This document shows positions 42,446-60,186 of a stretch of 62,887 bases of DNA, in pieces. The first letter of the stretch is position 1. Each line of letters starts with the position of its first letter. Source of the DNA: Pengzhenrongella frigida (GTDB taxonomy: Bacteria > Actinomycetota > Actinomycetes > Actinomycetales > Cellulomonadaceae); the NCBI RefSeq assembly GCF_004168625.1, contig NZ_SDWW01000026.1, positions 1 through 62,887 of the forward strand, given 5' to 3'. The notes under the pieces were generated by a model. It did not search any database, was not told where the DNA came from, and saw only the letters and a program-made list of their open reading frames with translations. A program made the translations under genes and the position numbers.

Positions 42446-42608
42446 CACGGAGAACTCCCTGTCAGGCGACGGGACCTGCGCCGAACGGGTGTGCGCACAC
42501 GGCTCTGCATGCCGCGGCCGGAGTCCTGACCACCCGGTTCGATTCCCAGGTCATGGCTCCACATCACGCTATCGCGAGCGGTTCCGTCCTGCGATGCGAG
42601 CGCGGGGC

Positions 42609-42690
42609 AGCAGTGTCCTCTCGCGCGGGACAGCAGTGTCCTCTCGCGCGGGACAGCAGTGTCCTCTCGCGCGGGACAGCAGTAGCCTCG
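42609..42690. repeat. Three perfect 23-bp tandem repeats plus a partial copy
   Basis: Units at 42609-42631, 42632-42654 and 42655-42677 are identical; a degenerate partial copy follows to about 42690. Each unit contains GTCC and GGAC arms around CG-rich DNA, so each could fold as a small hairpin. The array ends just before the acylphosphatase start. Confidence 0.95.
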
Positions 42691-42695
42691 AGAAT

Positions 42696-42947
42696 GTGCC
42701 CGTGCCGGACGCCGCCTGTGTCGCGAAGGTGCGCGGCCGTGTCCAGGGTGTCGGCTTTCGCTGGTGGACCCGCGACCAGCTGTCGCGGCTGGGCCTGACC
42801 GGATCGGCGCGCAACCTCGACGACGGCAGCGTCGAGGTCGTCGCGCACGGTGACCCGGCGGCGATCGAGCGGCTGCTCGCGGCGCTGCGCGGTCCCCACA
42901 CCCCGGGTCGGGTCGACTCCGTCGAGGTCACGCGCATCCCCGGGTAG
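42696..42947 (+). CDS. acyP: Acylphosphatase
   Basis: An 83-residue acylphosphatase. The phosphate loop '[19 protein letters not shown]' carries the catalytic Arg, and '[17 protein letters not shown]' the catalytic Asn. It hydrolyses carboxyl-phosphate bonds. GTG 42696 is the likely start; another GTG lies two codons on. The 23-bp repeat array occupies the leader. The mutarotase ATG follows 48 bases after the stop. Confidence 0.93.
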
Positions 42948-42994
42948 TGGCGAGGTGGGAGCATCATCTGACCCGCCCCGACCCCGGAGACCCG

Positions 42995-43939
42995 ATGCCA
43001 TCCGCACTGCCCGCCCATGCATCCCTGCCCTCCTCTGTGCGCGTCGGCCCCGGCCACGGGGGCCTGCCGGTGGTGTTCGTCGCCGGTCGCACCGGATCGG
43101 CCGAGATCTACCTGCACGGCGCGCACGTCACGCACTGGGCGCCGGCCGGGGCCGCGCCGGTGATCTGGATGAGCGCAGCGAGCCGGTACGTGCCCGATGC
43201 GCCGCTGCGAGGTGGGGTGCCGCTGTGCTTCCCGTGGTTCGGCGCGCACGACGGCGACGCGGCCGCCCCCGCGCACGGCTTCGCGCGGCTGCTCGACTGG
43301 GAGCTGGCGGACGCGCAGGACGACGGTGACGACGTCGTGGCGACCTTCCGGCTCGCCGACTCCCCCGCCACGAGGTCCTCCGCGTGGCCCCACCGTTTCG
43401 AGGCCCGCTACACCGTGACCGTCGGCGCCCGCCTGACGCTCGCGTTGGAGGTCACGAACCTCGACCCGAGCGACGTGATGTTCGAGGAAGCGCTGCACAC
43501 CTACCTGCGCGTGAGCGACATCGCCTCGACCGAGGTCACCGGGCTCGAGGGCGCGCCGTTCCTGGACCGGCTCGGTGGTCCAGATCCGCAGGCGGGCGAG
43601 GATGGTCCGGTGCGGTTCGCCGGCGAGACCGACCGCATCTACCTCGGCACTCGCAGCGCGGCGACGGTGGTCGATGGCGCGGTGGTCGACGGCGCGGTGG
43701 TCGACGGCGGGGTGGTCGACGGCGCGGTGGGGCGACGGGTCAGGATCGACAAGCTGGGCTCGGGCTCGACCGTGGTGTGGAACCCCTGGGTCGACAAGTC
43801 CGCGGCAATGGCCGACTTCGGCGATGACGAGTGGACCACGATGGTGTGCGTCGAGACGTGCAACATCCGCACGGACGCCGTGCGCCTCGCACCCGGGCAG
43901 AGCCACACCATGACCGCTGTCCTGGGGCTCACCGCCTGA
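42995..43939 (+). CDS. D-hexose-6-phosphate mutarotase-like aldose epimerase
   Basis: A 314-residue galactose-mutarotase-like protein of the YeaD type. It has 'AEIYLHGAHVTHWAPAGAAPVIWMS', 'RGGVPLCFPWFGAHDGDAAAPAHGFAR' (catalytic His) and 'FEEALHTYLRVSDI' (catalytic Glu nearby), then 'VWNPWVDKSAAMADFGDDEWTTMVCVETCNI'. It interconverts alpha/beta anomers of hexose 6-phosphates. Odd: a 15-bp in-frame tandem repeat inserts VVDGA-type units in a loop after 'GTRSAAT'. SD CGGAG before ATG 42995. Confidence 0.92.
   Translation: MPSALPAHASLPSSVRVGPGHGGLPVVFVAGRTGSAEIYLHGAHVTHWAPAGAAPVIWMSAASRYVPDAPLRGGVPLCFPWFGAHDGDAAAPAHGFARLLDWELADAQDDGDDVVATFRLADSPATRSSAWPHRFEARYTVTVGARLTLALEVTNLDPSDVMFEEALHTYLRVSDIASTEVTGLEGAPFLDRLGGPDPQAGEDGPVRFAGETDRIYLGTRSAATVVDGAVVDGAVVDGGVVDGAVGRRVRIDKLGSGSTVVWNPWVDKSAAMADFGDDEWTTMVCVETCNIRTDAVRLAPGQSHTMTAVLGLTA
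43667..43729. repeat. In-frame 15-bp minisatellite inside the mutarotase gene
   Basis: Four tandem copies of a 15-bp unit (43667-43726) with at most two differences, encoding VVDGA VVDGA VVDGG VVDGA, and a trailing GTG. Length is a multiple of three, so copy-number change would not break the frame. Confidence 0.95.
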
Positions 43940-43979
43940 TTGCGCCCGGCCGCGGCCGTTGCCGCATCCGGACAATCAA

Positions 43980-44194
43980 ATGCCCTCTCACCTGGGACGA
44001 TGTGCCTTGCGACGGACAGATCGACCAGACCGAGAGGGCATCTGACAGAGGCCATTCTGTCATGCCCCGGAGCCCGTCCCGGACGAGAGGGGCCGCGGCG
44101 ACCGCCCCGGGTCGGAAGGGACCAACGTCCCCGACCCGCACGCCGCCTCGACGCGCAGACTGTCCAGGCAGCCGGGGACCGCCTGTCTGGACAG
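43980..44194 (+). promoter_or_regulatory. Structured leader of the radical SAM gene
   Basis: Three inverted repeats lie in the 267-base spacer. ATGCCCTCTC (43980-43989) pairs with GAGAGGGCAT (44032-44041). TGACAGA (44043-44049) pairs with TCTGTCA (44056-44062) around GGCCAT. CTGTCCAG (44160-44167) pairs with CTGGACAG (44187-44194) just before the SD. The first could be a terminator of the mutarotase gene; the last could control ribosome access. Confidence 0.5.
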
Positions 44195-44206
44195 CAAAGG
44201 AGCACC

Positions 44207-45391
44207 GTGCAGTCTCGACCGGAGATGACGGCCACGCCGACTCAGGCGACGGGAATCATGGGGGGCAGCCGGCTGGACTACGGGCGCCGCCCGATGCTGG
44301 TCTTCTGGGAGACCACCCGCGCGTGCCAGCTCGCATGCCGGCACTGCCGCGCGAGCGCGACCGAACAGGCATTGCCCGGTGAGCTCACCACAGCACAGGG
44401 CCACGAGCTGATCGACCAGGTGGCCGGCTTCGGGCGGCCCTATCCGATCCTCGTGCTCACCGGCGGCGACTGCCTGCTGCGCCCGGACCTGTTCGAGCTC
44501 GTCGAGCACGCGACCGGGCTGGGCCTGCCGACGGCCCTGGCGCCGTCGGTCACGCCGTCGCTCACGCCCGAGATGATCGACCGGATCGTCGCGAGCGGGG
44601 TCAAGGCCGTCTCGATCAGCCTCGATGGTGCGCTCGCGGCGACCCACGAGGGGGTGCGGGGCATCGAGGGACACTTCGACGCCACCGTGCACGCGATCCG
44701 CACCCTCGCCGCCGCCGGGCTGACCGTGCAGGTCAACACCACGGTGATGCGCGCGAACGTGGACGAGCTCGCGGACGTCGCCGCCCTGATCTCGAGCGCG
44801 GGCGCGCACATCTGGGAGGTCTTCTTCCTGGTCCAGGTCGGCCGCGGCGTGGCTACCGAGGCGGTCACCCCCGCCGAGCACGAAGACATCTGCCACTTCC
44901 TGTTCGACGCCTCGCAGCACGGGTTCATCGTCCGCACGGTGGAGGCCCCGTTCTTCCGCCGCGTGGTCAAGTGCCGGCTCGCCGGTGACCCCGCCCCGAC
45001 CACCCCGCTGTACGAGCGGTTGTCCGGTCGGCTCGCCACGCTGATGGGACCGTCGATCGGTCGGGCCCGGGCGCACACCGCCGCCACCCGCGACGGCAAG
45101 GGCATCGTCTTCGTCGCGTACGACGGCGAGGTCTACCCGGCCGGGTTCCTGCCGGAGCCCCTCGGCAACGTGAAGACCACGCCGATCGCCGAGATCTACC
45201 AGGACAACCCGCTGCTGCGCCAGATCCGCGCGGCCGAGTTCACCGGTCGGTGCGGTCGGTGCGAGTACGCCGACCTGTGCGGGGGTTCGCGCGCCCGCGC
45301 GTTCGCTGCGAGCGGCGACCCGCTGGGCGAGGACCCCGCGTGCCCCTACCAGCCCGGCCCCCAGCAGCCCGAGGCCGTCCTGGTCTCCTGA
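44207..45391 (+). CDS. Radical SAM/SPASM protein (TIGR04053-like)
   Basis: A 394-residue radical SAM enzyme. The SAM cluster motif is 'ETTRACQLACRHCRASA' (CxxxCxxC), followed by 'PILVLTGGDCLLRPDLFELVEHA' and 'SISLDGALAATHEGVRGIEGHF'. A C-terminal SPASM-like cluster is 'CGRCEYADLCGGSRARAFAASGDPLGEDPACPYQP'. The pattern fits the TIGR04053 group, related to AhbD/NirJ haem-pathway enzymes. The usual TGGDP is TGGDC here. Substrate unknown. GTG 44207 has AAAGGAG four bases upstream; ATG 44225 is an alternative. Confidence 0.88.
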   Translation: MQSRPEMTATPTQATGIMGGSRLDYGRRPMLVFWETTRACQLACRHCRASATEQALPGELTTAQGHELIDQVAGFGRPYPILVLTGGDCLLRPDLFELVEHATGLGLPTALAPSVTPSLTPEMIDRIVASGVKAVSISLDGALAATHEGVRGIEGHFDATVHAIRTLAAAGLTVQVNTTVMRANVDELADVAALISSAGAHIWEVFFLVQVGRGVATEAVTPAEHEDICHFLFDASQHGFIVRTVEAPFFRRVVKCRLAGDPAPTTPLYERLSGRLATLMGPSIGRARAHTAATRDGKGIVFVAYDGEVYPAGFLPEPLGNVKTTPIAEIYQDNPLLRQIRAAEFTGRCGRCEYADLCGGSRARAFAASGDPLGEDPACPYQPGPQQPEAVLVS

Positions 45392-45562: not shown

Positions 45563-45910
45563 ATGCCTGAGCCGATCGACAAGCTGAAGGCCGAGTTCTT
45601 CAAGACCCTCGGACACCCCGCTCGGATCCGGATCCTCGAGCTCCTCGCCACCGGTGAGCACTCGGTCGGTGAGCTGATGCCCGAGCTCGGGCTCGAGGCC
45701 TCGCACCTGTCGCAGCAGCTCGCCGTGTTGCGCCGGGCCGGCGTCGTCGTCGCCCGCAAGCAGGGCAACACCGTGATCTATTCGATGGCCTCGCCGGACA
45801 TCGCGGCGCTGCTCCTGCTTGCCCGGAAGGTGCTGACGGGGCTGCTCACCGAGCAGATGGACCTCCTCAAGGACCTCCAGTCCGCCAGCGAGCCCACCAC
45901 GAGCAACTGA
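45563..45910 (+). CDS. ArsR-family regulator without metal-binding cysteines
   Basis: A 115-residue winged-helix protein ('EFFKTLGHPARIRILELLATGEHSVGELMPELGLEASHLSQQLAVLRRAGVVVARKQGNTVIYSM'). It contains no cysteine, so the classic CxC/alpha3 thiolate metal sites are absent; the signal may be non-thiol metal, redox or a protein partner. It begins 64 bases ahead of the Hyf-like complex operon on the same strand, with palindromic sites in front, so it likely autoregulates and controls that operon. ATG 45563 matches the family start. Confidence 0.9.
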   Translation: MPEPIDKLKAEFFKTLGHPARIRILELLATGEHSVGELMPELGLEASHLSQQLAVLRRAGVVVARKQGNTVIYSMASPDIAALLLLARKVLTGLLTEQMDLLKDLQSASEPTTSN

Positions 45911-45974
45911 CCGCTCCGGCGGTCCCGGCCGGCACCTCGTCGCACCGCTGAGCCGCACACGAAAGTAGGGACGC

Positions 45975-46454
45975 ATGACCTGGATCGGCAAGATCCGCCG
46001 AGTCGGGCGGATCGTGGAGCCCGCGCCCGCTGCACCCGAGCCGACCGTCGCACCCCCGACCGGCGTGCGCGGATCGCTCCAGCTGCGGCACGTCGACGCC
46101 GGCTCGTGCAACGGCTGCGAGCTGGAGCTCGCCGGTGCGTTCTCGCCCGTCTACGACGCCGAGCAGTACGGCGCGCGCCTGATCGCCTCGCCGCGCCATG
46201 CCGACGGGCTGATCGTGACCGGGGTCGTCACGCACAACATGCATGAGCCGCTGCTCAACACGCTCGCCGCCGTGCCCGAGCCCCGGGTCGTCATCGCGGT
46301 GGGCGACTGCGCGTGCAACCGCGGCGTGTTCGCGACGGCGTACGGCGTCGTGGGATCGGTCGCCGACGTGATCGACGTCGACGTCCAGGTGCCCGGCTGC
46401 CCGCCCACGCCCGACCAGATCGTCACCGCACTGCGTTCGGTCACCGGCAAGTGA
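45975..46454 (+). CDS. Ehr/Hyf-like complex small subunit (NuoB/HycG-type)
   Basis: A 159-residue NuoB-like iron-sulfur subunit. The proximal [4Fe-4S] ligands are C45 and C48 (SCNGCELEL), C112 (GDCACNRG) and C142 (PGCPPTPDQI), all present. It would pass electrons to or from the large subunit of the membrane complex. It is the first structural gene. The following gene starts within its stop (GTGA). Confidence 0.92.
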   Translation: MTWIGKIRRVGRIVEPAPAAPEPTVAPPTGVRGSLQLRHVDAGSCNGCELELAGAFSPVYDAEQYGARLIASPRHADGLIVTGVVTHNMHEPLLNTLAAVPEPRVVIAVGDCACNRGVFATAYGVVGSVADVIDVDVQVPGCPPTPDQIVTALRSVTGK

Positions 46455-48451
46455 CCACCACCGTGCTCCCCGCCGCCGCTGCCGAGCTCGGCGAGGGTCC
46501 CCGCACTGCTCGCCTCGCCCGCGAAGCCATCGCCTCCGGCCTCGCCACCACCCTGCTCGGCGCGCTCGGCCTGGTCCTCGGCGTGGTCGCGATCTTCGGC
46601 CCGACCCGGCACCTGCGGATCGACTGGCTGCTGCCGCTCGCCGGGGTCCGCTTCGACGTCGACCCGCTCGGCGGCCTCTTCATCGCCGTGACCGGCGCCG
46701 TCGCGGTCGCCGTGGGCATCTACACCGTCGGGTACGCGCAGCGCGAGCACTGGGCCCGGTTCCCGATGGTCGTGCTGCCCCTGTTCGTGGCCGGCATGCT
46801 CCTCGTCCCGGCCGCCGGGTCGGTCCCCACGTTCCTGCTGGCCTGGGAGCTGATGGCCGCCGCGTCGCTGGTGCTGGTGCTGTCCGAGCACAACCGCGGG
46901 GCGGTCCGGTTCGCCGGGGTGTTCTACGCGGTCATGACGCAGCTGGGCTTCGTGATGATCCTGCTCGCGCTCGTCCTGCTGTCCGCCGCGGCCGGGGGCG
47001 ACGCGTTCACCACGATCGCGGCCCACGCGGACGACATGTCGGCCGGGACGCGGACAGCCGTCTTCGTGCTGACCGTCCTGGGGTTCGGCTCGAAGGCCGG
47101 CCTGCTGCCGCTGCACGCGTGGCTCCCGAAGGCCCACCCCGAGGCACCGAGCCCGGTGTCGGCGCTGATGAGTGCCGCGATGGTCAACATGGGCATCTAC
47201 GGCATCATCCGTATCGACCTGCAGATCCTCGGCCCCGGGCCGCAGTGGTGGGGTCTGACGCTCATGATCCTCGGTGCCGTCTCGGCGGTCTTCGGGGTGC
47301 TGCAGGCCACGGTCGCCACCGACCTCAAACGGCTGCTGGCCTACTCCACCACCGAGAACATGGGCCTGGTCACGCTCGCGCTCGGGACGGCGTCGCTGCT
47401 GTCCGCCTCCGGGGCGCCCGACGTCGCCGCCATCGCGATGACCGCGGCGCTGCTGCACGTGCTCGCGCATGCGGCGTTCAAGACGCTCGCGTTCCTCGCG
47501 GCCGGCTCCGTGCTCGCCGCGACCGGGCTGCGGGACCTCGACAAGCTCGGCGGCCTCGCCCGCCGGATGCCGGTCACCACCGTGATGTTCGGGATCGGAG
47601 CGCTCGGCGCGTCGGGCCTGCCGATGGGTGCCGGGTTCGTCAGCGAGTGGATCCTGTTCCAGAGCCTCATCCACTCCCCCCCCGACGGCAACACCCTCCT
47701 CGCCCTGGCGATGCCGCTGTCCGTGGGCGCGGTCGCGCTCACGACCGGGCTCGGGATCGCCTCGATGGTGAAGGCGTTCGGCGTCGGCTTCCTCGCGCGG
47801 CCGCGATCGGTCGCCGCCGAGGACGCCCGCGAGTCCCCCATGAGCATGCTCACCGGCATGGGGCTGGCGGCGGCGGCCTGCGCGGTGTTCGCGTTCTGGC
47901 CGGCCTTGGTGGCACCCGCCCTGCGCGGCGTGCTCGACGCGCTGCCCGAGGTCGGCGGGGACACCGCAGGGGTCCAGCTGGCGACGTTCCTGCGCCTGCC
48001 GGGGATCGACGGCTCGCTCTCTCCCGCCCTGCTGGCGGTCGCCCTCGCTGCCGGCGTGCTCCTCGCGTTCGCGGCGTCCCGCTGGGGCGCCCGGCACCGG
48101 CCCGCGCCGGTCGAGGTTCCCCTGTGGGCGTGCGGCGCCGAGACCCTGAGCCCCCGGATGCAGTACACCGCGACCTCGTTCGCGGAGCCGCTGCAGCGCG
48201 TGTTCGACAACGTGCTGCGGCCCGATACCGACGTGGAGGTCACTCATTTCGCCGAGTCGCAGTACCTGGTCGAGAAGGTCACCTTCACCACTCGGCTCGC
48301 CGACCCGGTGGAGCAGCGGCTGTACACCCCGGTGGTGGGCGCCGTGATCGCACTGGCCCAGACCGTGCGCCGCGCCCACAACGGCAGCGTGCACCTCTAC
48401 CTGCTGTACGGCGCCATCGGGCTGCTCGTCGTGCTGCTGGTCGCCCAGTGA
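46451..48451 (+). CDS. HyfB-like antiporter-type membrane subunit
   Basis: A 666-residue, roughly 14-16 helix Mrp/NuoL-type subunit. 'GFGSKAGLLPLHAWLPKAHPEAPSPVSALMSAAMVNMGIYGIIRIDL' contains the conserved proton-channel Lys/His region, and 'ATDLKRLLAYSTTENMGLVTLALG' and 'LLHVLAHAAFKTLAFLAAGSV' are further antiporter signatures. The C-terminal soluble portion ('VEVPLWACGAETLSPRMQYTATSFAEPLQRVFDNVL') is HyfB-typical. It is predicted to translocate protons or sodium when electrons pass through the complex. GTG start overlaps the previous stop. Confidence 0.93.
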   Translation: MTTTVLPAAAAELGEGPRTARLAREAIASGLATTLLGALGLVLGVVAIFGPTRHLRIDWLLPLAGVRFDVDPLGGLFIAVTGAVAVAVGIYTVGYAQREHWARFPMVVLPLFVAGMLLVPAAGSVPTFLLAWELMAAASLVLVLSEHNRGAVRFAGVFYAVMTQLGFVMILLALVLLSAAAGGDAFTTIAAHADDMSAGTRTAVFVLTVLGFGSKAGLLPLHAWLPKAHPEAPSPVSALMSAAMVNMGIYGIIRIDLQILGPGPQWWGLTLMILGAVSAVFGVLQATVATDLKRLLAYSTTENMGLVTLALGTASLLSASGAPDVAAIAMTAALLHVLAHAAFKTLAFLAAGSVLAATGLRDLDKLGGLARRMPVTTVMFGIGALGASGLPMGAGFVSEWILFQSLIHSPPDGNTLLALAMPLSVGAVALTTGLGIASMVKAFGVGFLARPRSVAAEDARESPMSMLTGMGLAAAACAVFAFWPALVAPALRGVLDALPEVGGDTAGVQLATFLRLPGIDGSLSPALLAVALAAGVLLAFAASRWGARHRPAPVEVPLWACGAETLSPRMQYTATSFAEPLQRVFDNVLRPDTDVEVTHFAESQYLVEKVTFTTRLADPVEQRLYTPVVGAVIALAQTVRRAHNGSVHLYLLYGAIGLLVVLLVAQ

Positions 48452-49410
48452 GCGCCCTGTCGATCGTCGCGGCCGTGCTCCAGGTCGTCGTCGTCCTCGT
48501 CGGCGCCCCGTTCGTGGTCGGTGGGATGCGCCAGGTGCGCGCCCGCCTCGAGGGCCGCGCCGGGGGCGGCGTCGGGCAGCCGTGGCGGGACCTGCGCAAG
48601 CAGCTCCGCAAGCAGCAGGTCACCCCGCGCGGGACGACGCTCGTGTTCGCGGTGGCCCCGGCGATCGCGGCCGGCACCACCCTGCTGATCGCGGCGATCC
48701 TGCCGATCTTCGCTCTCGGCTCGCCGCTCGACTCCGTGGCCGACCTGTTCGGCGTCGTCGGGCTGCTGTTCCTGGGGACGGTCGCCCTGACCCTGGCGGG
48801 TCTGGACACCGGCACGGCGTTCGGCGGGATGGGCTCCAGCCGCGAGATCACCATCGCCGCGCTCGTCGAGCCGACGATCCTGCTCGCGGTGTTCGCCCTG
48901 TCCATCCCGGGCCAGTCGGCCAACCTGTCGGCCATCGTCTCGGCCACGCTCGACAACCCGGGCCAGGTGTTCTCCCTCGGCAGCGTGCTCGCGTTCGTCG
49001 CGCTCGTGATCGTGATCATCGCCGAGACCGGGCGGCTCCCCGTGGACAACCCCTCGACCCACCTCGAGCTGACCATGATCCACGAGGCGATGGTCCTCGA
49101 GTACGCCGGCCCGAAGCTCGCGCTCGTCGAGTGGGCCAGCGGGATGCGGCTGACGGTGCTGCTCGCGCTGCTGGCGAACCTGTTCCTGCCGTGGGGCATC
49201 GCCGGGGCCGATCCGTCGCTGCTCGCGGTCCTGATCGGCGTCGTGGCGATCGCCGTCAAGGTGTCGGTGCTGGCCGGACTGCTCGCGGCCGGCGAGGTCT
49301 TCATCGCCAAGCTGCGGTACTTCCGCGTGCCCGAGCTGCTCTCCGGGTCCTTCCTGCTCGCGCTGCTCGCGGTGACCGCGTCCTACTTCCTCGCCACCCC
49401 GACCCGATGA
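48448..49410 (+). CDS. HyfC-like (NuoH-type) membrane subunit
   Basis: A 320-residue NuoH/HycD homologue linking the peripheral arm to the membrane arm. The conserved quinone-cavity-like loop '[37 protein letters not shown]', '[40 protein letters not shown]' and the C terminus '[27 protein letters not shown]' are present. GTG overlaps the HyfB-like stop. Confidence 0.93.
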
Positions 49411-49426
49411 CCGGAAGGATCCGCTG

Positions 49427-50089
49427 ATGTCCCTCGCGACCTATACCGGCGTGCTCGACCTGACCGCAGGTGCGTTCCTGCTCGCCGCGGTGCTCATCGT
49501 GTGGCGCCGCGAGCTCCGCTCGATCGTGCACCTGCTGGCCTGGCAGGGCGTGGCCCTCGCCGCGATCCCCCTCACCGAGGGGCTCTACGAGGGCAACCCG
49601 GGCCCGGTCATCGTCGGCCTCGTCGTGCTCGTCCTGCGCGCCGGCGTGCTGCCCGTGCTGCTTCTGCGGGCCGTCGGGACCGCGGACGCCGAGCGCCGAG
49701 AGAGCACACCGCTGGTCAACACGACGTCCTCCCTGCTGATCACCGCCGCCCTGACCATGCTCGCGTACGCGGTCACCCGGCCGATCATCGCGCTCGACCA
49801 GGCCGCGGCCACCCGCGCCGTGCCCGCCGCGTTCGCCGTGATCCTCATCGCCCTGTTCGTGATGGTGAGCCGCCGTCGGGCCCTGTCCCAGGCGGTCGGG
49901 TTCCTGATGCTCGACAACGGCATCACGGCCACCGCGTTCCTCATCACCGGCGGCGTCCCCCTGATCGTCGAGCTCGGCGCGTCGATGGACGTGCTCTTCG
50001 CCGTGTTCGTCCTCGGGCTGCTCACCGGCCACATGCGTCGCGCCTTCGGGGGCACCGACCTCGATCAGCTACGGGAGTTGCGCGACTGA
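49427..50089 (+). CDS. HyfE-like membrane subunit
   Basis: A 220-residue protein with about seven helices of the HyfE/NuoK-fusion type ('[39 protein letters not shown]', '[65 protein letters not shown]'). SD GGAAGGA before ATG. Its TGA overlaps the next ATG. Confidence 0.9.
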
Positions 50090-51558
50090 TGAGCTATCTC
50101 TTGCTCGTACCCATCCTCGCCCCGCTCGTCGCGGCCGGCCTCGCCGCGCTGCTCGGCTGGCGGCGCCTGACCGCGTACGTCACGCTCGCGGCCGCCTTCG
50201 CCGTGCTGCTCAGCGGCGCGATCCTGGTCCACCGGGTGGAGTCCGGGGCGGTCTTCGCCGTCGGTCACCTGCTGCGGGCCGACTCCCTGACCGTCACCAT
50301 GCTGCTCGTGATGGGCACGGTCGGCACGCTCGCCACCTGGGCCAGCGTCGGCTACATCGACGCCGAGCTCCGCGACGGGCACACCGACCGCGCCGGCGCG
50401 CACCTGTACGCCGTCCTCCTGCCGCTGTTCCTCGCGGCGATGGCGCTGGCCGTGGTGGCCAACAACATCGGCGTCATGTGGGTCGCCATCGAGGCCACCA
50501 CCGTGGCCACCGCGTTCCTCGTCGGCCACCGCCGCACCCGGGCGGCGTTCGAGGCGGCCTGGAAGTACGTCGTGATCTGCTCGGTCGGCATCGCCCTGGC
50601 CCTGCTCGGCACCGTGCTGCTCTACTTCGTCAGCCTCCACGCCGGTGCCAGCAGCGCGCACGCACTCGACATCGACACGCTGCTGAACAACGCCGCCCAG
50701 CTCGACCCCGACGTGACCCGCCTCGCCGCGGGGCTGCTGCTGCTCGGCTATGGCGCCAAGGCGGGGCTCGTCCCGTTCCACACCTGGCTCGCCGACGCCC
50801 ACAGCCAGGCGCCCGCGCCGGTCTCGGCGCTGATGAGCGGCGTCCTGCTGTCGGTGGCGTTCGCGTCGCTGCTGCGGGTCAAGTCGGTCGTCGACCTGAC
50901 GCTGGGCACCGGGTTCCTCCGGGCCGGGCTCCTCGTCGTCGGGCTCCTCACGGTCCTGATCGCGGCCTCCCTGCTGGTGGTCCAGACGGACTTCAAGCGG
51001 ATGCTCGCCTACTCCTCCATGGAGAACATGGGCCTGGTCGCGATCGCGGCGGCGGCCGGCACCAAGCTGGCGATCGCCGCGCTCCTGCTCCACGTGCTGG
51101 CGCACGGCATCGGCAAGTCGCTCGTGTTCCTCGCGGCCGGCCAGCTCCAGGCCGCGCACGACTCCACGGCGATCAGCGCCGTCACCGGCGTCCTGACCCG
51201 GTCCCGCCTCGTCGGGGTGGCCTTCGCGGTCGGGCTCGCGGTCCTGATCGGGCTGCCGCCGTTCGCCATGTTCGCGAGCGAGCTGTCCATCGCACGGGCG
51301 CTGGCCGGAGCGAACCTCGGCTGGGTTCTCGGTGCCACCCTGCTGCTGCTGACCATCGCGTTCGCGTCCTTGGTCCGCAACGGCAGCCGCATGCTGCTCG
51401 GTCCGCCGCAACCGGACGCCCCGACCATCGCCCTGCCGGGCACCGTCGCCGCGGCGATGGTCACCGGCATCATCCTGAGCCTGGCCCTCGGCCTCAGCGC
51501 GGGTCCGCTCACGGCGCTCTTCCAGTCCGCTGCCACCCAGCTCGGAGCCAGCTCATGA
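50089..51558 (+). CDS. HyfF-like antiporter-type membrane subunit
   Basis: A 489-residue second antiporter-like subunit. Signatures include 'YGAKAGLVPFHTWLADAHSQAPAPVSALMSGVLLSVAFASLLRVKSVV', 'QTDFKRMLAYSSMENMGLVAIA' and 'LLHVLAHGIGKSLVFLAAGQLQ'. Together with the HyfB-like subunit the complex has two candidate ion channels. Overlaps at both ends (TGATG, ATGA) show strict coupling. Confidence 0.93.
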   Translation: MSYLLLVPILAPLVAAGLAALLGWRRLTAYVTLAAAFAVLLSGAILVHRVESGAVFAVGHLLRADSLTVTMLLVMGTVGTLATWASVGYIDAELRDGHTDRAGAHLYAVLLPLFLAAMALAVVANNIGVMWVAIEATTVATAFLVGHRRTRAAFEAAWKYVVICSVGIALALLGTVLLYFVSLHAGASSAHALDIDTLLNNAAQLDPDVTRLAAGLLLLGYGAKAGLVPFHTWLADAHSQAPAPVSALMSGVLLSVAFASLLRVKSVVDLTLGTGFLRAGLLVVGLLTVLIAASLLVVQTDFKRMLAYSSMENMGLVAIAAAAGTKLAIAALLLHVLAHGIGKSLVFLAAGQLQAAHDSTAISAVTGVLTRSRLVGVAFAVGLAVLIGLPPFAMFASELSIARALAGANLGWVLGATLLLLTIAFASLVRNGSRMLLGPPQPDAPTIALPGTVAAAMVTGIILSLALGLSAGPLTALFQSAATQLGASS

Positions 51559-53090
51559 CCGTCCCCCAGCCCCCCATCGGCGCACCCGCCGGCCTCCACC
51601 GCACCAGTCGGACCCTGCTGCCCGAGGAGCTCGCCGGGCAGGCCGCGTCGCTGCTCGAGGCCGGCTTCCGCCTCGGCCTGGTCGCCGCGCACGACGACGG
51701 CGCGACCCTGCGGGTGGTGTACCTGTTCCTGGCCGGCGACCCGGACCGCCGGGTCGAGCTGCAGGTCCGGCTCCCCGCCGACAACCCGCGGATCGCCTCC
51801 CTCGCCCCGCTGTCGTTCGCGGCCTCCCGGTTCGAGCGCGAGATGCACGACCTGTACGGCATCGTGCCCGTCAACCACCCGCTCCCCCGCCGCATGGTCC
51901 GGCACGCGCACTGGCCGGCGGGCTGGTACCCGATGCGCTCCGGCGCGGGCGACGTGCCGCCGTTCCGCGACACGGGCGCCGACGCCTACCCGTTCATCGC
52001 GGTCGAGGGCGACGGGGTCTACGAGATCCCGGTCGGGCCCGTCCACGCCGGGATCATCGAGCCGGGTCACTTCCGCTTCTCCGTGGTCGGCGAGAGCGTC
52101 CTGAAGCTCAAGGCCCGCCTGTGGTTCACCCACCGGGGCATCGAGAAGCTGTTCGAGGGCTTCGCCGCGACCGAGGCCGTCCACCTGGCCGAACGCATCA
52201 GCGGAGACACGTCCGCCGCGCACGCACTGGCCCACACGCTCGCGGTGGAGGACGCGCTCGGTATCACCATGCCCGCAGCCGCCCAGCAGCTGCGCGCCCT
52301 GCTGGTCGAGCTCGAGCGGCTGTACAACCACGCAGCCGATCTCGGAGCGCTGCCGAACGACGTCGGATTCTCGCTCGCCAACGCGCACGCGCTGCGCATC
52401 CGCGAGCAGCTGCTGCGGATCAACCTCGCCACCACCGGCCACCGGCTGCTGCGCGGCGGCATCCGGCCGGGGGCGGTCGAGCTGCTCAGCCTGCCCGACC
52501 CGGCCGAGCTGGACCGGATCGCGGCCGACCTGGCGGAGGTCGTCGAGCTCTCGCTCGCGAACTCGGTCATCCGCGACCGGTTCACCGGCACGGCGGTCCT
52601 CACCCGCACCCAGGCCTACGACCTCGGCTGTCTCGGCTACGTCGCCCGCGCGAGCGGCCTGGCCACCGACGCCCGGACCGACCACCCGGCCACCCCGCTC
52701 GCGGTGACCCCGGCCACCGCGACCGACGGCGACGTGCTCGCCCGGTTCACCATCCGGCGCGACGAGTTCGCGTCGTCGGTCCGGTTGGTGAAGCAGCTCA
52801 TCGCGGCCGCCGGCCCGCTGAGCTACCGCGCCGAGCCGGCCGAGCGGTCCGCGGCCGAGCCGACGTCGGCCGCCGTGCGCAGCGGGGTCGGCATCGTCGA
52901 GGGCTGGCGCGGGACGATCGTCCACCGCGTCGAGGTGGCCCCCGACGGGCTGCTGACCCGCGCCAAGGTCGTGGACCCGTCCTGGTTCAACTGGCCGGCC
53001 GTACCGCTGTCGATGGCGGACACGATCGTCCCGGACTTCCCGGTGACCAACAAGAGCTTCAACCTGTCCTACGCGGGCAACGACCTGTAG
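51555..53090 (+). CDS. Ehr-type large subunit: HycE/NuoCD-like without Ni-Fe cysteines
   Basis: A 511-residue fusion of a NuoC-like N terminus ('RVELQVRLPADNPRIASLAPLSFAASRFEREMHDLYGIVPVNHPLPRRMVRH') and a NuoD/HycE-like C terminus ('GPVHAGIIEPGHFRFSVVGESVLKLKARLWFTHRGIEKLFEG'). Where [NiFe] hydrogenases have RxCGxC it reads ERISGDTSAAH, with S216 and T219 in place of the cysteines. The C-terminal DPCxxC is missing; it ends DFPVTNKSFNLSYAGNDL. It therefore cannot bind a Ni-Fe centre and belongs with energy-converting hydrogenase-related (Ehr) complexes. The redox partner is unknown. Confidence 0.92.
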   Translation: MTVPQPPIGAPAGLHRTSRTLLPEELAGQAASLLEAGFRLGLVAAHDDGATLRVVYLFLAGDPDRRVELQVRLPADNPRIASLAPLSFAASRFEREMHDLYGIVPVNHPLPRRMVRHAHWPAGWYPMRSGAGDVPPFRDTGADAYPFIAVEGDGVYEIPVGPVHAGIIEPGHFRFSVVGESVLKLKARLWFTHRGIEKLFEGFAATEAVHLAERISGDTSAAHALAHTLAVEDALGITMPAAAQQLRALLVELERLYNHAADLGALPNDVGFSLANAHALRIREQLLRINLATTGHRLLRGGIRPGAVELLSLPDPAELDRIAADLAEVVELSLANSVIRDRFTGTAVLTRTQAYDLGCLGYVARASGLATDARTDHPATPLAVTPATATDGDVLARFTIRRDEFASSVRLVKQLIAAAGPLSYRAEPAERSAAEPTSAAVRSGVGIVEGWRGTIVHRVEVAPDGLLTRAKVVDPSWFNWPAVPLSMADTIVPDFPVTNKSFNLSYAGNDL

Positions 53091-55264: not shown

Positions 55265-55521
55265 GCCGATCCCTCCAGGGGGGTGCGGGGTGCAGCGGTG
55301 GCAGCAGGTGACAGACCTGCTCGCAGGGCCAGGGCGTCCTGCGCCTCCGCGACGCTCAGCCGGTCCAGGGCGAACCCGGCGTGCATCACGACCCAGTCGC
55401 CGACCTCCACGGGAGCGTCCAGCGTGACGAGCGAGACCGCCACCGTGCGGTCCGCGGTGTGCACGCGCGCCCAGCCGCCGCGCCGGAGCTCGACGACGCG
55501 GCCCACCTCACCGAGACACAT
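55261..55521 (-). CDS. hypC: [NiFe] hydrogenase maturation chaperone HypC
   Basis: An 86-residue HypC/HupF protein starting MCLGEVGRVVE, with the essential Cys2 that carries the Fe(CN)2CO precursor with HypD. The beta-barrel segment 'ARVHTADRTVAVSLVTLDAPVEVGDWVVMHAGFALDRLSVAEAQDAL' is typical. It overlaps the protease gene by 14 bases and EamA by four. HypA, B, D, E and F are not in the window and must be elsewhere. Confidence 0.93.
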   Translation of the reverse strand: MCLGEVGRVVELRRGGWARVHTADRTVAVSLVTLDAPVEVGDWVVMHAGFALDRLSVAEAQDALALRAGLSPAATAAPRTPLEGSA

Positions 55522-56029
55522 CGAGATCGACCTCCTGGGCCGGAATCTGGTGCTGCGCGGGGAGCTGGCGTGCGAGCGCGCCGACGACGGCGGCGACCGC
55601 CGCGGGCAGGGCGTCCTGCACCGTGGCCGACAGCGAGGTGGAGTGCTCGACGGTGGCCGCCTCGACCCCGACGAGCACGAGCCGCGGCGGCAGCCGGTGC
55701 AGGGCGCGGGCCAGCTCGACGGCGGCGGCGAGCCCGAAGGCGTGCGTGCCGCCGCGTCCGGTGCGGGCCCACGCATCCGCGGTGAGCGGGGGCGCGTCCG
55801 CGCCGGCAGCCAGCACGAACAGCGCTCCCGGTGCTGCGCCCGATCGGACGGCGTCGACCACGAGGGCGAGGTCGGCCTGACCCCACACGTCGATCAGGCC
55901 GGTCGGGTCCTCGTGCTCGATGACGGCCACGCCCGGCAGCCCGAGGGCCGCCACCCGCCGTGCGACCCAGAGCCCGACGGCGTCGTCCCCACCGTCGGGA
56001 CTGCCGAGCCCGATCACGAGGTCGGTCAT
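55508..56029 (-). CDS. Hydrogenase maturation protease
   Basis: A 173-residue HycI/HybD-type endopeptidase. The nickel-sensing acidic and His residues are D16 (GSPDGGDDAVG), D59 (LVVDAVRSG) and H96 (GGTHAFGLAAAVELA). It cleaves the C-terminal tail of the large subunit after Ni insertion. The target is encoded directly upstream, with ATGA overlap, and retains such a tail. Confidence 0.92.
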   Translation of the reverse strand: MTDLVIGLGSPDGGDDAVGLWVARRVAALGLPGVAVIEHEDPTGLIDVWGQADLALVVDAVRSGAAPGALFVLAAGADAPPLTADAWARTGRGGTHAFGLAAAVELARALHRLPPRLVLVGVEAATVEHSTSLSATVQDALPAAVAAVVGALARQLPAQHQIPAQEVDLDVSR

Positions 56030-57333
56030 GTCCGCTCCACGGTGAGGTCCAAGAAGTGCGTGGCGCACGAGATGCAGGGGTCGTAGTTGCGGATGGCCGC
56101 CTCGCACCGGTGGGACAGGTCGTGGTCGGACAGCTCGAGCCAGCTCTCGGCGAGCGTGCGCATGTCGGCCTCGATGCTCGGCTGGTTCTGCGACGTCGGC
56201 GGGACGATCTGCGCGTCGAGGATCGTGCCGTCGTCGTCCAGGCGGTAGCGGTGGAACAGCACGCCGCGGGGTGCCTCGGTGGCGCCGAACCCCTCGCCCG
56301 CGCGGGCCGGCACCGGGACGGACGGCGCTGTCCCGTCCCGCCAGGCGTCGATGATCCGCAGCGCCTCGCTGAAGACCTCGACCAGCTCCACCGACCGCAC
56401 GATGATCGATCGGAACGGGTTGCGGCAGGTCTCACCGAGGCCCGCCTCCCGGGCGGCCTGCTGGGCGAGCGGCGACAGCCGGTCGAAGTTCAACGTGTAC
56501 CGCGCGAGCGGCCCGACGACGTAAGGCCCACCGCCGTCGAGGCTGGCGTGCAGCGCGTTGGAGTGTGCGACGTGGTGCTCGGTGATGTGCTCCGGGAAGT
56601 CACGCACGTCGAAGGCGGTGCCGGCCGTCGTCACCACGCTGCCCGACTCGATCGGGTAGCCCTGCTCGGGCCGCAGCGAGAGGTAGGTGTACGGCTGCTC
56701 CAGGTCGGGGAAGTCGAAGGTCGACACCAGCCGCACGGTCGCCAGCGCATCCTCGAGCCCGCGTTCGAGCGCCGGCCTCAGACCGCCCAGCTCCGCGACC
56801 GTGGGCATCCGGTAGAAGCCGCCGAGCTTGACGTTGATCGGGTGCACCGACCGGCCGCCGACGAGGGTCATGAGCTCGTTGCCGACCTTCTTCAGCCGAA
56901 GCCCCTGCTCGACGGCGGCCGGGTGGTCCTTCGCCATCTCGATCCCGCCCGGGTAGCCGAGGAAGTCCGGGGCGTGCAGCAGGTAGATGTGCAGGGCGTG
57001 GCTCTCGATCCACTCGCCGCAGTACAGCAGGCGGCGCATGGTGCGGATCGTGTCGGGCACGCTCACGCCGCAAGCGTCCTCGAGCGCGTTGCACGCGCTG
57101 AACTGGTACGCGACCGGGCAGATGCCGCAGATTCGTGCGGTGATGTCAGGCGGTTCGGTCCAGGACCGGCCCCGCAGGAACGCCTCGTAGAACCGGGGCG
57201 GCTCGAAGATCCGCAGCTCGACCGCACCGACGTGCCCGTCATGGATCTCCAGGTGCATCCCGCCCTCGCCCTCGACCCGCGAGAGGGTCCCCACGTGCAG
57301 CACCTGGCCGCCGTCGGTCAGCTTGTGGCTCAT
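56026..57333 (-). CDS. Group 3b-type [NiFe] hydrogenase large (alpha) subunit
   Basis: A 435-residue catalytic subunit with complete metal ligands: C69 and C72 in ARICGICP and C420 and C423 in DPCISCATH. The tail FLDLTVERT after His426 should be removed by the adjacent protease. '[17 protein letters not shown]' at the N terminus is the conserved E-containing proton path. Together with the flavin subunit this is a cytoplasmic bidirectional NAD(P)-linked (sulf)hydrogenase of group 3b. Overlaps its neighbours by four bases at each end. Confidence 0.94.
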
Positions 57334-58139
57334 GTCAGGGCCTCCTCGTCGCGCGCGGGCTCGTGCCGCTCGCTCTCCCGGCGAAATGGCTCGGAGGCGG
57401 CGTTGAAGGTCCGGTAGATGCGCATGACCTCGTCGTCGGCCATCCCGAGCGAGATCAGGCGGTCGGACATCGCCGCGGTGTTCGGCGAGTCCTGCGGCCC
57501 GAAGCAGCCGTAGCAGCCGCGGGCGAAGGCCGGGCACAGGGCCCCGCAGCCCGCCTGCGTGACCGGGCCGAGGCACGGGGTCCCGTTGGCGACCGCGACG
57601 CACACCGCACCACGCCGCTTGCACTCGACACACACGCTGTAGGTGGGGATCCGCGGCTTGCGGCGCTGGATGTAGGCGGCGAGCACCTCGAGCAGCTGAT
57701 GCTTGTTGATCGGGCAGCCGCGCAGCTCGAAGTCCACGTCGACGTGCGCGGAGATCGGCGTCGACCGCGCCAGCGTCGACAGGTACTCCGGATGGGCGTA
57801 GACCACGGACCGGAACTCCGCGATGTCCCCGAAGTTGCGCAGGGCCTGGATCCCGCCGCTGGTCGCGCAGGCCCCGATCGTGACGACGTTGCGCGACATC
57901 TCGCGCACCTGGCCGATGCGCTCGATCTCCTCGGGCGTGGTGACCGAACCCTCGACGAGCGAAACGTCGTACGGGCCCTCGACGACGGCGCGCGTCGCCT
58001 CCGGGAAGTACGCGATCTGCACCTCGCCCGCGAGCGCCATCAGCTCGTCCTCGCAGTTGAGCAGGGTCAGCTGGCAGCCGTCGCACGAGGCGAACTTCCA
58101 TACGGCCAGCTTCGGCAGGGCCTGGGTCTGGATCGTCAT
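57330..58139 (-). CDS. Group 3b-type hydrogenase small (delta) subunit
   Basis: A 269-residue iron-sulfur subunit without signal peptide. The proximal cluster motifs are '[17 protein letters not shown]', '[16 protein letters not shown]' and '[19 protein letters not shown]'. A Cys-rich second half ('[48 protein letters not shown]') provides further [4Fe-4S] clusters. It relays electrons between the Ni-Fe site and the flavin subunit. Start overlaps the upstream stop (TGATG). Confidence 0.93.
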
Positions 58140-59011
58140 CACAGCTCCCGACTGGACAGCAGCGGGGCGAGCCGGTCGTAGGTCAGCACCGGCCCGTCGA
58201 CGCAGACGAACAGCTCGCGCAGCTGGCAGTGCCCGCACAGCCCCACGCCGCACTTCATGTTGCGTTCCATCGACATGCGGATCCGGCTCGGCCGCACCCC
58301 ACGGTCGGCGAGCGCTGCGGCCGAGAACCGCATCATCACCTCGGGCCCGCACACGAAGGCCGTCGTGTTCCGCGGGTCGAACCCCGCCCGGGGGATCAGC
58401 TGGGTGACCAGGCCGACCTTGCCGCGCCAGGCGTGCTGCCCGTTGTCGACCGTGACGCCCACCACGATGCCGTGGTCGTGGGCCCAGCTGCGCAGCTCGT
58501 CGCCGAAGATGATGTCCTCCGGGGTGCGTACCCCGTACAGCAGGACGACCCGGCCGTACCGGTCCCGCTCGGAGATCAGCTCGAGCAGCGCCGGGCGCAG
58601 CGGCGGGAACCCGATCCCACCGGCGATGAACACCACGTCACCGCCCGCGCCGAGGGACACGTCCCACGAGGTGCCGAACGGGCCCCGCACGCCCAGCAGC
58701 GTGCCGACCGGTGCCGTGATGAGCGCGTGGGTGACGACGCCGACGTCGCGGATGGTCTGCTCGAGCGGCCCCCCGCGGGCCGGGTCCCCGCTGATGGAGA
58801 TCGGTACCTCCCCGACCCCGAAGGCGTCGAGCATCGTGAACTGACCGGGGCGGTAGGCCAGCGGTGGGCCCTCGGTCGGCTCGAGCTCGAGGGTGAAGGT
58901 GTCCCGGGTGTCCTGACGGGTGTGCGCGATCCGGTACCGCCGGGGTCGCATCGGGTCGGCGAGCGTCTCCGGCGACGTCCCCGCCCGGTGGAGGTGTTCG
59001 ACCATGCTCAT
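58139..59011 (-). CDS. Hydrogenase flavin/NAD(P)-binding (gamma) subunit
   Basis: A 290-residue ferredoxin-NADP reductase-like subunit. The FAD motif is '[25 protein letters not shown]', the nucleotide motif is '[44 protein letters not shown]', and '[11 protein letters not shown]' follows. A C-terminal [2Fe-2S] motif Cx4Cx2Cx8C is in '[18 protein letters not shown]'. It exchanges electrons with NAD(P)H. ATG 59011 has GGGAG upstream; 29 bases separate it from the Fe-S subunit gene. Confidence 0.93.
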
Positions 59012-59040
59012 CGTCTGCTGCTCCCGCCCTGTGGATCGCC

Positions 59041-60186
59041 TCAGCTGCGGCCCGCGGCTGGTTGCGGGGTCCAGCGCAGTGCTGCGGCCTCCGCGGTGAT
59101 GTCGATCGCCGCCGGGCACCAGGTGATGCACCGGCCGCACCCCACGCACCCCGACATGCCGAACTGGTCCTGCCAGGACGCGAGCTTGTGGGTGATCCAC
59201 TGGCGGTACCGCGACCGGATCTCGGGCCGGATGGCGCCGCCGTGGATGTAGGAGAAGTCCTCGGAGAAGCACGAGTCCCACACCCGCCGCCGCTCGGCGA
59301 CGTCGCCGGTGAGGTCGGCCACGTCCTCGACCGACGTGCAGAAGCAGGTGGGGCACACCAGCGTGCAGTTGGTGCACGCCAGGCACAGGGAGGCGACGTC
59401 GTCCCAGCGGGGGCTCTCGGCGTTCGCGTACAGGACCTCCTTGATCCCGTCGGTGTCGAGCGTGCGGCCCATGTGCGCGACGGACCAGGCGACGGCGTCG
59501 TCGGCGGCCCGCACGTCGTGCGCCGGCGCGGACGTCGTCGGGACCTCGGCGAGGACCTCCTCACCCCGCGGTGTGCCCACCTCGACGAGGAACCGGTGCG
59601 GGCCGTCGTCGAGCAGCTCGGTCAGCGCGAGGTCGTAGCCGGCGTCCGGCCGCGGGCCGGTGCCCATCGAGGCGCAGAAGCAGGTGCCGCCCGGAGCGGT
59701 GCAGGTCACGGCCACGACGAAGGCGCCGGCCCGGCGGGCCGCGTACCGCACGTCGACGTGGTCGCGACCGAGGAGCACGACGTCGTGGATCGCCAGGGCG
59801 TGCAGGTCGCACGATCGGACCCCGAGCAGCGCGTACGGCCCCTCGTCCCCGGCACGCTCGGCCCCGTCCTCGTTGACCGTGAACTCCTCGCCGGTGCGCC
59901 GCCCACGCCAGATGAGCTCCTCGGCCGGGAACAGCACCGGCTTCGGGGACTGCGCACCGGCGGCGAAGCCGAACAGGGCGTCGTCGGCGCGGCGTCGGAG
60001 CCGGTAGTGCGCGGCGTCCTGGTCGTCGCCCCAGCCGCGCGGGAGGTCGTCGATCGTGGCGATCGGCGCGTGCACGATCGCCCCGTCCCGCACCGTGGGC
60101 CCCACGACGGCGTAGCCGCGAGCACGCAGAGTGTCGATGAGCCCCTGCAGCCCGAGCAGATCAAGAACCCGCATCTCGGCATCCAT
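59041..60186 (-). CDS. Hydrogenase iron-sulfur (beta) subunit
   Basis: A 381-residue protein like the beta subunit of sulfhydrogenases/anaerobic sulfite reductase A. The N-terminal part is 'EELIWRGRRTGEEFTVNE…YALLGVRSCDLHALAIHDVVLLG…AVTCTAPGGTCFCASMGTGP'. Two C-terminal [4Fe-4S] motifs follow: 'CLACTNCTLVCPTCFC' and 'CVGCGRCITWCP'. First gene of the hydrogenase operon. ATG 60186 chosen because GGGGAGG lies six bases upstream. It could host electron exchange with ferredoxin or sulfur. Confidence 0.92.
   Translation of the reverse strand: MDAEMRVLDLLGLQGLIDTLRARGYAVVGPTVRDGAIVHAPIATIDDLPRGWGDDQDAAHYRLRRRADDALFGFAAGAQSPKPVLFPAEELIWRGRRTGEEFTVNEDGAERAGDEGPYALLGVRSCDLHALAIHDVVLLGRDHVDVRYAARRAGAFVVAVTCTAPGGTCFCASMGTGPRPDAGYDLALTELLDDGPHRFLVEVGTPRGEEVLAEVPTTSAPAHDVRAADDAVAWSVAHMGRTLDTDGIKEVLYANAESPRWDDVASLCLACTNCTLVCPTCFCTSVEDVADLTGDVAERRRVWDSCFSEDFSYIHGGAIRPEIRSRYRQWITHKLASWQDQFGMSGCVGCGRCITWCPAAIDITAEAAALRWTPQPAAGRS

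Follow-up and report, generated by a model that had tools for sequence, protein, structure and literature searches.

An Ehr-type complex without Ni-Fe ligands in Pengzhenrongella frigida: a possible ion-translocating machine whose relatives include lineages without NuoB cluster cysteines

A stretch of 62,887 nucleotides from Pengzhenrongella frigida (contig NZ_SDWW01000026.1 of assembly GCF_004168625.1, positions 1 to 62,887, forward strand; hereafter the window) contains, at 45563-53090 on the + strand, an ArsR regulator gene followed in the same direction by six subunit genes, NuoB-, HyfB-, HyfC-, HyfE-, HyfF- and NuoCD/HycE-like in that order. From the sequence it is safe to state that this operon encodes an Ehr-type complex without hydrogenase activity. 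Beyond this, the complex is proposed to translocate ions, to carry out no H2 chemistry and to share with its relatives a function without obligatory electron transfer, a reading held tentatively and with a little less than even confidence. The features of the operon are as follows.

45563..45910, + strand: ArsR-family regulator, without cysteine (Pfam HTH_5, 2.7e-12; PDB 6jmi, 1.1e-37)
45975..46454, + strand: NuoB/HycG-like subunit of 159 aa, with C45, C48, C112 and C142 and without a ferredoxin domain (Oxidored_q6, 2.9e-29; alignment with HycG, HyfI and NuoB)
46451..48451, + strand: HyfB-like antiporter subunit, with E133, K215, K293, K344 and E399 (NF005086, 1.7e-169, under cut-off; 34% identity to E. 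coli HyfB)
48448..49410, + strand: HyfC/NuoH-like subunit (NADHdh, 9.2e-39; alignment)
49021..49110, + strand: HyfC loop of 30 residues, nearly invariant across the clade and different from E. coli HycD/HyfC
49427..50089, + strand: HyfE/NuoK-like subunit, with E182 and D188 (NF008556, 1.1e-19, under cut-off; alignment)
50089..51558, + strand: HyfF-like antiporter subunit, with E135, K224, K303, K343 and E398 (NF005044, 2e-104, under cut-off; 38% identity to E. coli HyfF)
51555..53090, + strand: NuoC+NuoD/HycE-like large subunit of 511 aa, without Ni-Fe ligands (PDB 7z0s_E, 1.5e-54; alignment)
52191..52223, + strand: L1 motif ERISGDTSAAH, where hydrogenases have the CGxC motif (alignment)
53067..53087, + strand: C-terminus SYAGNDL, where HycE has CYSCTDR, with no maturation tail (alignment)

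All six core subunits of a group 4 hydrogenase/complex I ancestor, reported in the initial annotation of this DNA, were located on the + strand, and the ArsR gene precedes them. The translational coupling claimed for the genes was found at four of the five junctions among the six subunit genes, which overlap by 1-4 bases, and not at HyfC-HyfE, where a 16-base gap is present. Pfam families matched in the operon were Oxidored_q6, Proton_antipo_M (twice), NADHdh, Complex1_49kDa/30kDa and HTH_5, and the large subunit also matched the N-terminal part of NiFeSe_Hases. HyfE was matched by no Pfam model and by NCBIfam NF008556 alone, below its curated cut-off, as were most NCBIfam matches of the operon proteins.

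The large subunit was aligned with E. coli HycE, HyfG and NuoCD. The four Ni-Fe cysteines of HycE/HyfG fall on S216, T219, S505 and G508, and no cysteine lies close to either pair, which bears out the earlier reading that S216/T219 replace CGxC and that the protein ends without DPCxxC, and excludes displaced cysteine ligands. The protein ends at L511, opposite the R of HycE ...CTDR and thus at the mature HycE C-terminus; HycE is cut after CTDR during its processing, and its precursor tail is absent here. The closest solved relative was HycE, subunit 5 of formate hydrogenlyase (FHL) (7z0s_E, 1.5e-54). I168 and G217 occupy the positions of His38/Tyr87 of the 49 kDa subunit (Thermus numbering), which we take to be the quinone ligands of complex I. 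All 126 contigs of the genome were searched for a second large subunit with intact cysteines: PF00346 matched only the NuoD of complex I and the operon gene, and PF00374 only the soluble group 3b hydrogenase (56029-57333) and the operon gene. Modelling of the large subunit with AlphaFold on an alignment of 7 rows reached a mean pLDDT of 59.9, too low for a fold search, and the model was not used. With a group 4-like core present and the Ni-Fe cysteine motifs absent, the Ehr-type assignment holds.

HyfB residues E133, K215, K293, K344 and E399 and HyfF residues E135, K224, K303, K343 and E398 are common to the window proteins and their E. coli namesakes and nearly constant among the relatives described below; a proton-transfer role for them is presumably carried over from complex I. 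At the position of the HyfC loop E. coli HycD reads EMGKLPFDLAEAEQELQEGPLSEYSG, and the window has 30 residues that read differently. This loop is nearly invariant in 69 HyfC proteins from 81 loci, and since it is present also in Ni-Fe-bearing loci it marks the clade and not the loss of nickel. For Ehr complexes, coupling of a cytoplasmic redox reaction to ion translocation has been suspected in the literature.

Relatives were collected by a contig scan with a seven-row alignment, in which at least 588 stretches matched and at least 580 were confirmed; 80 loci were kept (L030-L109), making 81 with the window. They came from actinobacteria, Rokubacteria, Nitrospira, Acidobacteria, Proteobacteria, Verrucomicrobia, Planctomycetota, Bacillota, Omnitrophota, Daviesbacteria and others. 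A further 34 loci were added (total 115), 19 from a phylum-wide large-subunit search and 15 by NuoB similarity, using as queries the NuoB of L057 and L086, which already lack one or three cysteines. The order (ArsR)-NuoB-HyfB-HyfC-HyfE-HyfF-large subunit was found in most actinobacterial and Rokubacteria loci with an upstream region, and NuoB stands last in most other loci. The comparison of neighbours in related genomes that had been suggested for this operon was run on flanks of up to 10 kb, often shorter. An ArsR gene was found in 29/81 loci and was the only non-core gene to recur in more than 10; each gene of the window's hydrogenase region clustered with no other locus. Conserved neighbours were dropped as a clue to a partner, ArsR alone exceeding that count. 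A SulP-type transporter adjoins the operon in 4/81 loci (L093, L096, L099, L102), too weak a link to make it a candidate partner; these loci are scattered, and the anion transporter was confirmed by Pfam in two of the four.

The Ni-Fe cysteines were kept in 12 of the 115 large subunits and absent in 103. All 12 Ni-Fe-bearing loci have a four-cysteine NuoB. Among the Ni-Fe-less loci with a readable NuoB (n=92), 64 read CCCC at the cluster positions, 12 have two or three cysteines and 16 have none or one; the NuoB counts leave out 11/115 loci in which no NuoB sequence was available, mostly at contig ends. Eleven of the 16 belong to a Patescibacteria-type clade (L086, L134-L141, L150, L151; TCDD, TEDD, TEGD, SEGD, DCDN), which also holds two genomes of the window's own phylum; the others are L061 and L143 of Microbacteriaceae (ACAS, GCAS), L162 and L163 of a more distant Ehr type (DEDS, DDDS), and L142 (DADN). 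The loci with two or three cysteines are mainly from Cryobacterium and kin (CCCS, CCCN), together with L159 and L160 (CCPS), L164 (CCCN) and L071 (PCCC). In L071 the first cluster cysteine is shifted, and the resulting tandem pair GSPNCCE resembles the paired cysteines of complex I. A search of Patescibacteria gave a match in 13/331 genomes, ten of which have lost three or four cysteines, the other three being L131 and L132, of a different four-cysteine type, and one fragment; the family search gave a match in 8/249 genomes, of which six have three cysteines left and two have a single one. The former ligands are often Asp or Glu in L134-L142, L162 and L163, which represent separate lineages, and these acidic replacements may form a new carboxylate metal site or salt bridges.

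A quick tree of the large subunits (n=118), made with the motif columns removed, has the Ni-Fe-bearing rows at its base. Parsimony placed on it one loss of the Ni-Fe ligands, six losses of any NuoB cysteine and four losses of three or four cysteines; the single Ni-Fe loss rests on a branch with an SH-aLRT of 89, and the branch leading to L142 is very long. The loss of the cluster in several lineages, as predicted from these ligands, puts in question that the function they share is a redox reaction at all.

Decay of the genes is an unlikely cause of the cysteine loss, as the frames are open and the ratio of nonsynonymous to synonymous substitution rates (dN/dS) is low where measurable. Six open frames of expected length were found in L086, L134-L141, L143, L150 and L151; the contig of L061 ends inside the large-subunit gene, and L142 is incomplete. 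Across all six genes dN/dS was 0.10-0.17 for L061 vs L143 (ACAS/GCAS) and 0.17-0.21 for L150 vs L151 (TCDD), no higher than in the mycobacterial pair L035 vs L032 (0.16-0.39); most Patescibacteria comparisons were saturated at synonymous sites (dS). In the 0-1-cysteine loci the key residues were complete in 13/15 for HyfB (5/5), in 14/16 for HyfF and in 13/15 for HyfC (9/9), and in the four-cysteine loci in 55/57, 54/63 and 57/60, respectively. The large-subunit pocket triplet SGD was kept in 60/64 four-cysteine loci and in 11/16 with 0-1 cysteine, with G-D in 14/16 of the latter. The beta subunit of F1 was matched in 10/10 Patescibacteria carriers tested, nine above cut-off, and COX1 and NuoF each in 0/10. 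The operon lies less than 10 kb from the F1 beta gene in 3/10: in L086 it lies between atpC and atpD (Pfam for atpA, atpG and atpC), and in L140 at a distance of one gene. The remaining seven carriers have the operon and F1 beta on different contigs, or F1 beta is below cut-off. Since two of the three, L140 and L141, are sister rows, this proximity to the ATP synthase represents at most two independent cases.

In the window, NuoB C45, C48, C112 and C142 align with the cluster cysteines of HycG (alignment including HyfI and NuoB), which is also its closest solved relative (7z0s_G, 9.8e-32). Their retention had been noted from the sequence and is confirmed, and the window complex probably still binds one [4Fe-4S] cluster on this subunit. 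No open reading frame (ORF) of the window holds two closely spaced 4Fe-4S motifs by a scan that allowed 8-60 residues between motifs, that recovered as positive control the two ferredoxin subunits of L165, a true FHL locus, and that is blind to the soluble hydrogenase beta subunit (59041-60186), whose two motifs lie far apart. The NADH module and NuoI of complex I are absent from the window gene cluster. The statement that no ferredoxin-type or NADH subunit is encoded here holds for the window by motif scan and gene content, and the ferredoxin scan extends it to 107/114 other loci, a two-cluster ferredoxin being found within 5 kb in the remaining seven. Five of these have the domain fused to NuoB (L082, L092, L099, L152, L153), with a second ORF as well in L082; the others are L165, with separate subunits, and L087, with an ORF 3.6 kb away.

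The state of the NuoB ferredoxin domain was judged by eye and motif, with eight examples checked by Pfam (including L092 and L152). Among the 12 Ni-Fe-bearing loci it is intact in L082 and L099, near-intact in L101, degenerate in L090, L091 and L107 and missing in L154-L158, and L165 has separate ferredoxin subunits. Among Ni-Fe-less loci it is intact in L092, L152 and L153 and present as degenerate remnants in L081, L084, L102, L104, L105, L142, L161, L162 and L164; no such domain is present in the window type or in the Patescibacteria clade. A rule that Ni-Fe and the ferredoxin domain occur together is therefore not strict, as L154-L158 bear Ni-Fe cysteines without the domain. The large subunits of L154-L158 have CGAC or CAAC and a C-terminal CxxC ending in xDR with no C-terminal tail, and an ArsR gene adjoins; they are possibly nickel-bearing members without known electron input. 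From these states nickel seems to have been lost first, then the ferredoxin domain and finally, in a few lineages, the one remaining cluster. Two groups depart from this neat order: L154-L158, and L142, L162 and L164, which have lost cluster cysteines yet show ferredoxin remnants.

HypD, which is needed to build the Ni-Fe cofactor, was found in 23 of 50 operon-carrying genomes and not found in 27 (50 of the 80 loci tested, many of them incomplete metagenome genomes). It was found in 4/5 carriers with Ni-Fe cysteines vs 19/45 without, and it was missing in 9/20 RefSeq NZ_ records (L032, L037, L041, L042, L046, L056, L057, L059, L067). The survey covers carriers other than the window genome, which has its own [NiFe] hydrogenase. 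Together with the four replaced ligands and the mature-length C-terminus, this result agrees with the earlier conclusion that the complex can neither make nor oxidise H2.

By its regulator and gene order the window operon is the counterpart of the published Rv0081-Rv0087 locus of M. tuberculosis. The window ArsR matches Rv0081 (PDB 6jmi) at E 1.1e-37 over residues 5-111, the next match being at 6.9e-14. The window order (ArsR-NuoB-HyfB-HyfC-HyfE-HyfF-large subunit) was found in 5/6 named mycobacterial loci (L032, L034, L035, L040, L065), and in the sixth, L031, ArsR is placed elsewhere. Rv0082 and Rv0083 are presumably the NuoB- and HyfB-like subunits. A large subunit at E 1e-100 or better was found in 71/248 sampled mycobacterial genomes, and 30/30 mycobacterial large subunits (best 30 of the 71 genomes, examined without picking out Rv0087 by name) have no cysteine at the four Ni-Fe positions. 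A table of PMC6901956 lists Rv0081 as a regulatory protein, calls Rv0082-Rv0083 probable oxidoreductases and gives Rv0084-Rv0087 the names hycD, hycP, hycQ and hycE, and the portions of that paper on this locus describe it as regulated by Rv0081 and as a putative [NiFe] hydrogenase complex, whereas the mycobacterial large subunits surveyed here are without the ligands. In L040 (Candidatus Mycobacterium methanotrophicum; 10001-12116) the large-subunit match is about 600 bases longer than expected and comprises two ORFs.

The proposed mechanism is as follows. The complex would descend from a group 4 [NiFe] hydrogenase ancestor, several early-branching members carrying a ferredoxin domain on NuoB, and would translocate ions while neither making nor using H2. 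The shared function would be seated in the large-subunit pocket, remodelled to SGD[S/T] ... SYxGxD in the window type, and an event there would be coupled to the antiporter-like subunits via the HyfC loop. As partner reaction a non-redox one is envisaged, either the binding of a ligand or ion or the exchange of one ion for another, and the NuoB cluster of the window would be assembled as a sensor, gate or leftover and would not drive the reaction. ArsR would switch the operon on under a specific stress, its M. tuberculosis relative being a regulator of the corresponding operon. The broader proposition, that the family no longer consists of redox enzymes, that several lineages have lost every known redox centre and kept the ion-translocating machine, and that a non-redox pocket event drives it, is plausible but rather doubtful.

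Several observations weigh against this proposal. Ion translocation is something we infer from conserved residues, and the non-redox partner reaction is a postulate. All four NuoB cysteines are kept in 64/92 Ni-Fe-less relatives and in the window, so the cluster is under selection there and may be catalytic. Since 15 of the 34 loci added were fetched with cysteine-poor NuoB queries, the sampling of cluster loss was biased. In HyfE, E182/D188 is changed in 7/15 readable 0-1-cysteine loci (QN in 3, QD in 2, EA in 2), all in the Patescibacteria-type clade (L086, L135, L137, L140, L141, L150, L151), vs 2/62 four-cysteine loci, both with a conservative change (EE); because of this the ion path of that clade may be partly altered. 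The pocket triplet differs in 5/16 of the 0-1-cysteine loci (TGD in 2, AGD in 1, EGV in 2), and these lineages may have changed function. The HyfE and triplet changes rule out the simple view that the ion path is complete and the pocket unchanged in the cluster-less lineages. Finally, 5/12 Ni-Fe-bearing loci (L154-L158) also have no NuoB ferredoxin domain, so absence of the domain alone is not proof that there is no electron input.

A strong alternative is a redox pump with a single cluster, like archaeal MBS. A soluble low-potential donor (e.g. ferredoxin) would dock on NuoB at the former ferredoxin-domain site, and the cluster would hand its electrons on to polysulfide, a quinone or a similar small acceptor where the Ni-Fe site used to be, driving ion pumping; the cluster-less lineages would have changed function secondarily. 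Such a pump is a real possibility that we nonetheless lean against. It would explain the retention of the NuoB cysteines in the window and most Ni-Fe-less loci, electron entry is still possible in Ni-Fe-less L152, L153 and L092 with their intact ferredoxin domain, and HyfE and pocket changes gather in cluster-poor lineages, as a change of function predicts. It is harder to reconcile with an SGD triplet that is the same in most loci whether four cysteines or 0-1 are present, with recurring neighbours that include no donor or acceptor gene, and with I168 and G217 at the complex I quinone-ligand positions. For the family as a whole the non-redox reading is slightly favoured over this cluster-based pump, since cluster-bearing and cluster-less members alike retain the loop and most residues of the channels and the pocket; the preference is small, as the cluster is present in the majority of members and its loss was accompanied by changes in HyfE and, in some lineages, in the pocket. 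A two-part H2- or formate-linked pump, formed with the group 3b hydrogenase (55508-60186, - strand) or the molybdopterin enzyme at 60498, is improbable: both enzymes lie within 10 kb in the window, and pairing of formate dehydrogenase with Ehr is proposed for Riflemargulisbacteria and Saganbacteria in part of PMC6349859, but no gene of the window's hydrogenase region has a counterpart beside other loci, in flanks of at most 10 kb, and HypD was not found in over half of the carrier genomes tested. An active FHL or [NiFe] hydrogenase, as the mycobacterial label in PMC6901956 has it, is all but excluded by sequence; the overall homology to HycE (E 1.5e-54) would agree with it, but the four ligands are absent from the window and from all the mycobacterial large subunits surveyed, and the window genome holds no other candidate large subunit.

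Among known systems, Ehr complexes are like the window in their group 4-like core, antiporter-like subunits and absence of Ni-Fe ligands. Complexes of this kind without Ni-Fe ligands are described in PMC6349859 and PMC4378227, the latter reporting 'six syntenic genes' near each such subunit in Sulfobacillus and giving the function as unknown. The portions of these two papers that deal with Ehr make no mention of loss of the NuoB cluster ligands, which is seen here in relatives and not in the window, and cluster-less Ehr relatives were not recognised among the open-access papers searched, judged by titles and abstract openings. Counterparts of HyfB, C, E, F, G and I of E. coli Hyc/Hyf are all present in the window operon, which differs in having no counterpart of HyfA, HyfD, HyfH, HyfJ or HycI, no Ni-Fe ligands, no tail and another HyfC loop. 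It differs from complex I in having no NADH module and no NuoI, and at the quinone-ligand positions. Archaeal MBS and Mbx combine a Ni-Fe-less large subunit with a cluster-bearing NuoB; MBS, a sulfane reductase that acts on polysulfide through its exposed NuoB-type cluster, contains a ferredoxin subunit as well as additional subunits of Mrp type. The chain 6u8y_L, which we take to be from archaeal MBS, matches the window large subunit at 3.6e-15, weaker than the match to HycE (7z0s_E).

Outside the operon, the following features were annotated in the window.

43940-45391, + strand: TIGR04053 radical SAM/SPASM protein (over cut-off), directly upstream of ArsR; clusters with no other locus
55508-60186, - strand: group 3b-type soluble [NiFe] hydrogenase, comprising large, delta, gamma and beta subunits and a maturation protease (subunit matches below curated cut-offs)
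60498-62861, + strand: molybdopterin oxidoreductase with a 4Fe-4S N-terminal domain (Pfam), close to the window end

The complex had been described as lying beside a true soluble hydrogenase; this adjacency is present in the window and does not extend to a conserved neighbourhood, as the hydrogenase genes cluster with no other locus. Short repeated units stand in the translations of both strands at about 42500-42700, before an ORF that by eye resembles an acylphosphatase, and an in-frame repeat, VVDGAVVDGAVVDGGVVDGAV, lies at about 43650-43720, inside the ORF at 42947-43939.

How the chemistry of the peripheral arm of complex I drives distant membrane pumping is a long-standing question. The Ehr class is already published; what is new here is the loss of NuoB cluster cysteines in about four Ni-Fe-less lineages, including Patescibacteria and Microbacteriaceae. 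If the proposal is true, these would be natural relatives that have no redox centre yet retain the pocket, the antiporter-like subunits and the loop of NuoH type, electron transfer as such would be dispensable for driving the arm, and coupling could be studied alone. The hydrogenase/formate hydrogenlyase label would be corrected on an operon whose large subunit occurs in 71/248 sampled mycobacterial genomes, and Patescibacteria with neither COX1 nor NuoF found (0/10 each) would gain a candidate for an energy-converting complex.

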